From positions 1 to 32,503 of the IMG/VR virus record IMGVR_UViG_3300020204_000217: a stretch of 32,503 bases of DNA, one strand, 5' to 3'. This DNA comes from a virus. Below the pieces are notes generated by a model. The model saw only the letters and a program-made list of their open reading frames with translations. It had not been told where the DNA came from and made no database searches. This document shows positions 11,181-13,440 of the stretch, piece by piece. The position numbers and the translations under genes were made by a program. Within the stretch, counting starts at the first letter, position 1. The number at the start of each line of letters is the position of its first letter.

Positions 11181-12254
11181 TTATTGCACAAAACTATTAA
11201 GTTTTCCAAAACACTGATTTAACCAAATATGATAATTAGGGATATTTGCCCACATCTTGTCTTCTGTAATTAATTTGGTAAATCCCATCTTATCTATCTT
11301 TGGTACGGGCTTATTAATTATTTCTTCAATCCTTAACTGAGTAAAACTTTGTACTTGAGTGTTATGTAACTGCATTAATTCATAATTTCTTTCAAGCAAC
11401 AACTTACTGTTCAACACTCGTTCATAAATTTTATACTTGCTAATATTATTTTCAGCATAGTTATAAATTTGTTGTAAACACACTTGAGGTTCTTCTCCCA
11501 GAAATGGAAATGCTTGAATCACTCTCTTTAAGCCAACACCTTCCAAGCCGGGTATATTATCACTTGTATCACCTTCCATTATTCTATAGAAGATAAAGTT
11601 TTTGCAACTGATACCATACTCGTCTACGATTTCTTTACACCCAAAAATCTTTTTCTTTACCGGACTCCAAATACTAATCTTATCACTTGCTAATTGTAGA
11701 AAATCTTTATCAGTAGACATTATAGTAACGTTACTATCCTTAAATGTCTGCTTAGCAAGATAAGCAATAGTATCATCTGCTTCAACTTGATCCATTGACA
11801 TGACAGTGACAGGCAATACATCAAGATAATTTACTGTACGAATCAGTTCTTTCTTAAAATTCTGCGATTCTGTTAAACTATCGGATAGATCATCATAAGT
11901 TCTATTTAGTCTAATGTCAGTTTTTCTTCCATTCTTATAACCGGGATAAATCTTCCTTCTCTTTTGAGAACCACCTTTACCATCAAATACAATAATAACC
12001 CGTGTAGGATTTAATAGTTTAATTGCATATCCTACACTTTTGAGAAAACCGGCAATACCACCAGTATGAAGACCATCATCATTTAGTGATGGCACTGCCA
12101 TGAAACTACGAATATAGGTATTTAACTACAACCCGTCAACCAACAGGACATCGCTGTTAATCGACTTTTTAAGTCCTGTTGTGACGGAATCTCTTTCTAT
12201 ATTCTCAAATAAAGAGAATAGTTTCTTTCGTTCGTTTGGAGTAAAACCGTTCAT
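11181..12254 (-). CDS. 5'-3' exonuclease (FEN / T4 RNase H type) with in-frame TAG at codon 43
   Basis: A 5' nuclease that removes RNA primers and flaps. From ATG 12254 (2 nt after the recombinase stop) the frame reads 42 codons ending LLVDGL, then TAG (12126-12128), then TTA and NTYIRSFMAVPS without change of frame; the frame stays open to 11181. LLVDG carries the first catalytic Asp of the family and IRSF its conserved Arg. Further motifs: VIIVFDGKGGSQKRR, QVEADD, STDKDF and the H3TH loop DTSDNIPGLEGVGLK. Without recoding, only a restart at ATG 12101 (306 codons) would give protein, and it would lack the first Asp. A 6-nt bypass, readthrough, a natural mutation or a sequencing error are all possible; see findings. 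The family is certain, the expressed form is not. Confidence 0.85.
12123..12131 (-). other. Candidate translational bypass (or stop-readthrough) site: TTG TAG TTA
   Basis: Minus strand: Leu codon TTG (12129-12131), stop TAG (12126-12128), Leu codon TTA (12123-12125). One Leu tRNA (anticodon UAA) can pair with both Leu codons, so a peptidyl-tRNA could leave at TTG and land on TTA. That would give VDGLNTYIRSF, which restores the family spacing from Asp to Arg. Confidence 0.45.
12141..12181 (-). other. Perfect 9-bp hairpin upstream of the in-frame TAG
   Basis: Minus strand CAACAGGAC (12173-12181), 23-nt loop, GTCCTGTTG (12141-12149). The stem ends 9 nt before the TTG-TAG site, inside the coding sequence. 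It could be part of a recoding signal; in T4 gene 60 a 5' stem-loop helps bypassing. Confidence 0.5.
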
Positions 12255-12256
12255 TC

Positions 12257-13393
12257 TTATTCGTTACCAGCCGATTCTTCTTCAGTATCAACAGTAGCGT
12301 CTTCAACGATTTGACTATTTGGGTCTTTATATTTCATAACAACAGCATCACAAATCTTGAGATATAGTTCTTCTTTCAAAGCTGTATCAGATTGCATTGT
12401 GGATACGAAATCTTTGGATTGAAACTTCCATTCAGTACCATCATTTTTTCTGTAAGCGTAATAAGCGCCACCTTGTTTGATAATATTATTTTCTTTCAGT
12501 ACTTTGATCCAACTACTATAGTCAGCAATACCACTGTCAAAGTAGATTTCAAAGTTGGCCTGACGTTGAGGAGGCCCCATTCTGTTTTTGATAACAACCG
12601 CTTTACATTCATTACCAATAACTTCTTCAGCCTTTTTCAACTTACCAGTATTGTTCAAACGAACACGAACACTACAATGATACGCAAGTGCCTTACCACC
12701 ACTTACTACATACTTGTCACCAAATGCCATAGCATTTAGATTTTGACGAAGTTGGTTAGTAAATACAGTAAGAACCTTTTGACGACCAATCATGGTAGTA
12801 ATCTTACGCATCGCTTTACTGATAATAATACTCTTACCGGTTGCGAATCCATCCTTACCATGATCACTCTCTAGTTCCACCTTAGTTGATGCGGCTGCTA
12901 CAGAGTCAACAATAATTGTAAGGATACGATCCTTGTTGCTCTTACGAACAATTGCAATCATCTTTTCCATCTGAGCAAAAATATCTTCAACGGTTTCACA
13001 TTGAACATACAGCAACTTAGATAAATTTACACCAAGACTCTTCCAGAACTCAGGAGCTGCTGCATTTTCAGTGTCAATTACTACTGCAACTCCGCCTTTC
13101 TTTTGAGTATCAGCAACAACGTGAGCGGATACCAAACTCTTACCGGTACCTTCCAGTCCGTTGAATTCAACCATCTTACCAACAGGCAATCCTCCGTGAG
13201 GACGATTGCTAATTGCCAAATCTAAAATTGATGAACCGGTACTAATCCAATCAGTAATTTCGGCTGGATTTTCTTGTTCATCCAAGAAATAAGCAATCTT
13301 ACCACCATCTTTATTTGCTTTGTTCAACTCATCTGCTAACAATTCAATGAGTTCATCTCTCTGATTTTCTTTATTATTTTGTTTCTTTGCCAT
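12257..13393 (-). CDS. uvsX: RecA/UvsX-type recombinase
   Basis: Strand-exchange recombinase of the RecA family, about 378 residues from MAKKQNNKEN. Motifs: DWISTGSSILDLAIS and LPVGKMVEFNGLEGTGKS (Walker A), VVIDTENAA, LTIIVDSVAAAS (Walker B), LTVFTNQLRQN (L2 region). The acidic tail (DTEEESAGNE) resembles that of UvsX. The frame is open to a GTG at 13435, but that start lies inside a strong hairpin and would add a hydrophobic leader (EFLYFTGFLVIIV); ATG 13393 is preferred although no Shine-Dalgarno precedes it. TATAAT lies 4 nt before the ATG but has no fitting -35. It follows the SSB gene and precedes the exonuclease with a 2-nt gap, so these are one module. Confidence 0.93.
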   Translation of the reverse strand: MAKKQNNKENQRDELIELLADELNKANKDGGKIAYFLDEQENPAEITDWISTGSSILDLAISNRPHGGLPVGKMVEFNGLEGTGKSLVSAHVVADTQKKGGVAVVIDTENAAAPEFWKSLGVNLSKLLYVQCETVEDIFAQMEKMIAIVRKSNKDRILTIIVDSVAAASTKVELESDHGKDGFATGKSIIISKAMRKITTMIGRQKVLTVFTNQLRQNLNAMAFGDKYVVSGGKALAYHCSVRVRLNNTGKLKKAEEVIGNECKAVVIKNRMGPPQRQANFEIYFDSGIADYSSWIKVLKENNIIKQGGAYYAYRKNDGTEWKFQSKDFVSTMQSDTALKEELYLKICDAVVMKYKDPNSQIVEDATVDTEEESAGNE

Positions 13394-13410
13394 AACGATT
13401 ATAACTAGAA

Positions 13411-13440
13411 AGCCGGTGAAGTATAAAAACTCCACCGGCT
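13411..13440. terminator. Strong hairpin between the SSB and recombinase genes
   Basis: AGCCGGTG ... CACCGGCT, extended to 11 bp with one wobble, loop of 8 nt. The plus-strand reading is followed by a long T-rich run (13441-13454); the minus-strand reading has only TTTCTAGTT. For the minus-strand genes it is therefore a weak or partial terminator, or an end-protecting/processing hairpin that would let SSB be made in excess over the recombinase. Confidence 0.55.

Follow-up and report, generated by a model that had tools for sequence, protein, structure and literature searches.

The question here was how a DNA replication nuclease could be made from a gene carrying a stop codon at its catalytic site. 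The window, the whole 32,503-nucleotide (32.5-kb) stretch analysed (positions 1 to 32,503 of IMG/VR virus record IMGVR_UViG_3300020204_000217), is a phage contig in which a FEN-type exonuclease gene has TTG-TAG-TTA between LLVDGL, containing the catalytic Asp, and NTYIRSF. An earlier note had read this as a 6-nt translational bypass resembling that of T4 gene 60, a reading which our analysis supports by comparative sequence evidence only, in the absence of protein or ribosome-profiling data.

The exonuclease gene of the window is interrupted by a stop codon

The gene runs on the minus strand from ATG 12254-12252 in the frame MNGFTPNERKK...LLVDGL*LNTYIRSFMAVPS... to TAA 11183-11181, with the following features:

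11181..12254, minus strand, FEN-type 5'-3' exonuclease gene in two segments (codons 1-42, gap, then the rest)
12129..12254, minus strand, segment 1, 42 codons ending ...SDVLLVDGL and carrying the catalytic Asp
12129..12131, minus strand, take-off codon TTG (Leu)
12123..12128, minus strand, 6-nt gap, comprising stop TAG (12128-12126) and landing codon TTA (12125-12123)
11184..12122, minus strand, segment 2 coding sequence, NTYIRSFMAVPS... to the end
12132..12188, minus strand, predicted hairpin with lower stem 12188-12182/12138-12132 abutting the take-off codon, middle stem 12181-12173/12149-12141 and a partial inner stem
12257..13435, minus strand, recA/uvsX-like gene directly upstream (Pfam RecA 7.9e-53), with no homing endonuclease between it and the exonuclease (spacer measure 137 nt)

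The part of the gene from ATG 12101 matched Pfam 5_3_exonuc_N (4.3e-26), and the gene lies between the RecA/UvsX-like gene and a DnaB-like helicase. Clean homologues (those without the insertion) matched Taq Pol I, T5 FEN and T4 RNase H by sequence (locus L003; loci and contigs of relatives are given L numbers) and by predicted fold (L002). L003 aligned without a gap to Taq Pol I across the junction, and D40, N43 and R47 were invariant in the 24 clean proteins aligned, so that the spacing of 7 from catalytic Asp to Arg noted earlier holds. The insertion is not an assembly error, as the same allele (over the 200-odd nt compared) was found in two other contigs (L001 and L105), with diverged copies in L004 and L099. 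When ORFs of a 173-kb clean relative were searched against the window, three alignments held a stop; two of these lie on the plus strand where the genes run on the minus strand, and were taken to be antisense ORFs, whilst the third is this site.

Stop-containing gaps of 5 or 6 nt recur at the same site in relatives

To investigate whether the gap is conserved, a protein scan of viral contigs was carried out, keeping the best 80 of 356 relatives, and their junctions fell into three states: no insertion, +6 nt with a stop, and +5 nt TAGTG. Pattern scans allowing 0-20 nt of any letters after TAA, TAG, TGA or TGG gave 53 stretches, of which 48 were real alleles, all either +5 TAGTG or +6 stop plus YTN, and 5 were unrelated hits with TGG; two further +6 contigs (L340 and L341) were missed by the pattern and were found separately, and two cut rows (L368 and L382) were dropped. 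In total, 50 contigs besides the window were gapped, 32 with +5 (YTG.TAG.TG) and 18 with +6. By distinct 200-nt alleles there were 134 clean and 32 gapped, 16 with +5 and 16 with +6, and a stop codon directly followed the take-off codon in 32 of 32 distinct gap alleles, although the scans had asked for a stop or TGG there. Most relatives are clean, but the outcome that would have told against the earlier note, relatives all clean and without a hairpin, was not found. Among isolated phages, the three best relatives (LR756508, an uncultured phage; Mel-JY01; Flavobacterium immuto), the only ones whose junction was read among 963-1287 records, are clean, and a genome collection gave 0 matches to one narrow TAG pattern.

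The distinct +6 alleles were TTG.TAG.TTA (3), CTC.TAA.CTT (1), CTT.TAG.CTT (4), CTT.TAG.CTC (1), CTT.TAA.CTC (1), CTT.TGA.CTC (1), CTT.TAA.CTG (1), CTT.TAG.CTA (1), CTG.TAG.CTG (2) and TTC.TAA.TTA (1). In 16 of 16 of these the codons before and after the stop share their first two bases (TT/TT in 4, CT/CT in 12), with both codons Leu in 15; the exception, L249 (TTC.TAA.TTA), pairs a Phe with a Leu codon. In the 16 distinct +5 alleles the landing codon GTG matches the take-off codon YTG in two of three positions. TAG, TAA and TGA all occur, within one group (L339 TAG, L334 TAA, L385 TGA). The +6 alleles are not 16 independent trials, as we judge there to be about six lineages (window type; L030; L238-L242; the L244 group with L246-L248 and L252; L340-L341; L249), without a tree over all of them. 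If Leu were needed after the stop for protein reasons, the codon usage of the window would give the same box in 62% (TT) or 38% (CT) of cases, so matching alone argues moderately; taken with the +5 alleles and three stops it argues strongly for re-pairing of one peptidyl-tRNA, as inferred from the codons.

ALTERNATIVES

Removing either gap length gives the junction of the clean relatives, and in 230 of 230 clean rows nothing is inserted there (DGL|N 220, DFM|N 7, DGM|N 2, DSM|N 1). The AlphaFold2 model of clean L002 (mean pLDDT 87.7) places D40 at the end of strand 35-40, to which segment 1 corresponds, and the junction (42/43) in the first turn of helix 41-51, with the predicted fold being that of T5 FEN, T4 RNase H and Taq. 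Stop-codon readthrough by a near-cognate or suppressor tRNA, giving VDGL-X-L-NTYIRSF, would keep the frame in +6 alleles, and the codon after the stop is Leu in 16 of 16 distinct +6 alleles, as would also be expected if that residue matters. However, readthrough cannot restore the frame in +5 alleles, all three stops occur, and two residues would be put between the invariant D40 and N43. No tRNA with anticodon CUA was reported by ARAGORN in the window or in six related gap contigs (G002, G004, G005, G007, G008 and 40 of 45 kb of G009), although contigs may be fragments. TAG ends some ORFs of 150 aa or more in relatives (3/76, 1/60, 1/37, 3/46, 36/211 and 6/116), though 0 of 19 in the window, and no other gene of the window was seen to be interrupted in comparison with one clean relative. 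A recoded TAG was rejected, and readthrough is considered very unlikely. ARAGORN also reported a tmRNA and 37 tRNA-like genes, including Leu tRNAs UAA, CAA, UAG, GAG and CAG, in a +5 phage contig (L216:12191-12571, and L216-L218, L221; the 303-kb contig of L088), and tRNA-like genes with 4-nt or 2-nt anticodons in contigs with +5 alleles (L193:9272-9347; L217:12769-12842; L218:10402-10473), which may be prediction noise.

Termination and reinitiation is a live rival for the +5 alleles, in which the stop overlaps a GTG start (TAGTG), so that a 42-aa ORF1 would end and an ORF2 (fMet-NTYIRSF...) would start, giving a two-piece exonuclease that assembles. The landing codon in the 16 distinct +6 alleles, which share the site, is TTA, CTT, CTC, CTA or CTG, none a usual start, and the split would separate the strand with catalytic D40 from the rest; reinitiation fits only +5 and is considered unlikely overall.

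The gap alleles might also be dead or N-terminally truncated genes restarting at ATG 12101, from which the long ORF is intact. Restart would lose D40 and R47, and a dead gene does not fit the spread of the alleles, which are diverse with ORF1 open. In 13 pairs of gap alleles tested, ORF1 had fewer amino-acid changes than random placement (p<0.05) in 10, but not in L001/L004 (0.078), L334/L248 (0.05) or L255/L278 (0.06). In the 7 codons after the gap there were 0 non-synonymous changes in 10 pairs and 1 in 3, with the tests for L001/L004 and L248/L340 not significant; between the +6 alleles L001 and L030, 6 of these 7 codons differ, all synonymously. As the 5' cassette recombines, selection after the gap acted partly in the clean state. 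One FEN gene, with no second copy, was found in each of 13 records (which may be fragments), and we regard a dead or truncated gene as very improbable.

A predicted hairpin reaches the take-off codon but is not exclusive to gap alleles

The earlier note had described a 9-bp stem with a 23-nt loop ending 9 nt upstream of the take-off codon. This stem, CAACAGGAC (12181-12173) / GTCCTGTTG (12149-12141), is present, but it is the middle of a longer predicted hairpin whose lower stem TCCGTCA (12188-12182) / TGACGGG (12138-12132) abuts the take-off codon. In MFE folds of 75 nt the outermost pair of the largest stem-loop ended at -1 to -5 (the last nt of the take-off codon being -1) in 22 of 22 distinct gap alleles, but also in 61 of 112 clean ones, so the hairpin is not diagnostic of bypassing. 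In 11 alleles of the window's family 95.0% of pair cells were standard, with a covariation score of 0.202 against 0.124 shuffled (0/500) and double-change pairs 3 against 1.7 (28/500). In 16 alleles (15 distinct) including the L244 group and L340, the 7-bp lower stem had 98.1% and a score of 0.362 against 0.201 (0/500), with G-C to A-U exchange following GAC/GAT of the catalytic Asp codon, but two of five pair measures did not exceed shuffles (pairs with double change 355/500, pair types 414/500), and shuffles do not remove relatedness. A search for perfect stems ending 0-2 nt from the take-off codon (so that their place is partly set by the search) gave 20 of 22 gap alleles with the stem ending at the nucleotide before that codon and 2 one short, but the mean length was only 8.95 against 8.11 in 112 clean alleles; against synonymous-codon resampling it was 8.95 against 5.94, with per-allele p mostly 0.1-0.4.

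Clean alleles (for example L005, L124, L271 and L311) mostly have strong, very stable hairpins (z about -4 to -8) with covariation inside the coding sequence, within about 60 nt before the DGL/N junction, the function of which is unknown, while L026 and the outgroups L110-L112, L191 and L192 have none. This suggests that the hairpin is probably older than the gap and was co-opted. In T4, refolding of the 5' stem-loop behind the ribosome is held to promote forward movement (PMC5009743, PMC3014915, PMC11194080), and the place of the hairpin here would suit such a role. A KK at residues 10-11, 31-32 before take-off in the window, is in clean alleles too.

Many gap alleles have a homing endonuclease gene upstream

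The recA-to-junction distance was 128-142 nt in 104 of 111 clean rows of the window's family (the exceptions being L026/L180 at 230 and the outgroups L110-L112, L191 and L192), 137 nt in the 9 +6 rows, and 228-235, 742 or 1100-1213 nt in the +5 rows (recA was out of reach in 4 of 72 rows, whose contigs are covered by other rows). By contig, 20 of 32 +5 contigs hold an open full-length relative (60-100% identity) of an ORF found in L043, 2 (L096 and L103) hold a fragment, and 10 have no such match (L024 only weakly, at its separate recA-inserted one) but a spacer some 95 nt longer, which we read as a deletion scar. In L024 (2081-4752) recA itself appears split into a 244-aa ORF, a 344-aa ORF with a DUF559 hit, and a 282-aa ORF carrying the RecA C-terminal part. 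The L043 ORF has a Vsr-like nuclease region (MTES_1575 1.6e-7, below Pfam's cut-off), a weak NUMOD3 match and PHROG homing-endonuclease hits (phrog_559 2.4e-16, phrog_3339 3.9e-11). Its fold match to I-Bth0305I was not significant (E 0.16, low-confidence model), and the EDxHD label is our reading of the motif. In another lineage, L238-L242, an HNH-type endonuclease gene (phrog_655 9.4e-51 for L240) sits in the same place in 5 of 5 contigs. Some members of the two endonuclease kinds (L078 and L088 against L238, L241 and L242) share a central, NUMOD3-region segment at 37-47% identity, which could mean a shared DNA target.

Comparison of near-identical twins showed sharp exchange of a cassette that ends at the gap. 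L043 (+5) and L037 (clean) have identical recA over 1372 nt and over 99% identity after the gap, but the last 60 nt of exo before it are only 47-60% alike and L037 lacks the endonuclease; L078/L075 behave likewise. L240 (+6, 748 nt between recA and the junction) and clean L256 (98 nt) have recA 98.5% and exonuclease 98% identical. On a tree of 56 downstream sequences (of 91, with three short loci, L099, L100 and L105, and near-copies dropped) the gap state changes at least 14 times, no more clustered than shuffled labels. The endonuclease is not strictly linked, however. The window's own allele, L004, L099, L105, L030, the L244 group, L340-L341 and L249 have none, and a 45%-identical HNH gene stands between recA and exo beside clean alleles in L331-L333. 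L249, the most divergent gap allele, has an unexplained spacer of about 664 nt without a match, and comparison of the window's allele with clean L002 showed that mainly the last 60 nt before the gap are unlike (53-67%).

Taken together, we consider it likely that the exonuclease is made by programmed translational bypassing of a very short gap, a natural stop hop. In this reading the ribosome reads to the Leu codon with a stop codon in the A site, peptidyl-tRNA-Leu lets go, the mRNA slides 6 nt (5 nt in sister alleles), the tRNA re-pairs with the matching Leu codon (an imperfect GTG in the +5 alleles), and reading resumes at Asn, giving ...VDGL-NTYIRSF... as in the clean relatives, with the hairpin behind the ribosome possibly refolding to drive the forward slip. 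The hop itself and the role of the hairpin are inferred, as is endonuclease resistance. The gap interrupts the gene at its most conserved codons and most likely makes the allele resistant to, and spread by, homing endonucleases encoded just upstream. A broader reading, held a little less firmly but still probable, is that these are a family of 5- and 6-nt stop hops, arisen or spread repeatedly at the same catalytic codons of phage FEN exonucleases, each an endonuclease-resistant allele travelling with endonucleases of different nuclease type but a shared DNA-binding segment, and driven by a hairpin that zips up to the take-off codon; these would be the first natural stop hops, and a general route by which homing endonucleases create bypass genes.

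Comparison with known bypassing systems

T4 gene 60, with the mobA homing endonuclease, is the best-established phage bypass (PMC3014915, PMC5009743, PMC11194080). In common with it, the alleles described here have a take-off codon followed directly by a stop, a landing codon of the matching box in +6 alleles, a predicted hairpin 5' of take-off, a short ORF1 (42 codons here, 46 in T4), an upstream homing endonuclease gene in many alleles, and relatives without the gap. They differ in that the gap is 5-6 nt rather than 50, lies at the catalytic codons of a FEN exonuclease gene and recurs in several phage lineages, and an A-site stem-loop as in T4 was not identified. Synthetic stop hops of +5 and +6 (Weiss et al. 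1987) used matched codons flanking a stop, with 9 nt giving one amino acid, a description which fits the +6 alleles, and the 2016 review states that no natural occurrences of in-frame stop hopping are known (PMC5009743). Bypassing has been proposed, but not proven, in the mycobacteriophage Corndog tape-measure gene, whose gap holds an HNH gene, and in the Streptomyces phage Hau3 terminase (PMC4351075, PMC5009743), without repeated stop-hop alleles being described in the text consulted. The byp elements of Magnusiomyces capitatus mitochondria are likewise short non-coding inserts corrected by bypassing, but at 81 places in a mitochondrial genome and apparently independent of mRNA context, where here there is one site in one phage gene (PMC5009743). 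The endonucleases here are free-standing, between recA and exo, and linked with a coding gap. No paper on such a gap in a phage exonuclease was listed in searches limited to open-licence papers (those consulted being PMC5009743, PMC4351075, PMC2988022, PMC3014915 and PMC11194080). The alleles also warn that in-frame stops in metagenomic phage genes need not be errors or readthrough.

In L004 (9154-10239) a ribonucleotide reductase ORF begins with a match to the C-terminal part of an intein splicing domain (2.4e-7, below Pfam's cut-off). In Bacillus phage SPO1L4 (OQ921339.1, about 75226-76084) the exonuclease match falls in two pieces under two hypothetical proteins, so this gene may also be interrupted.
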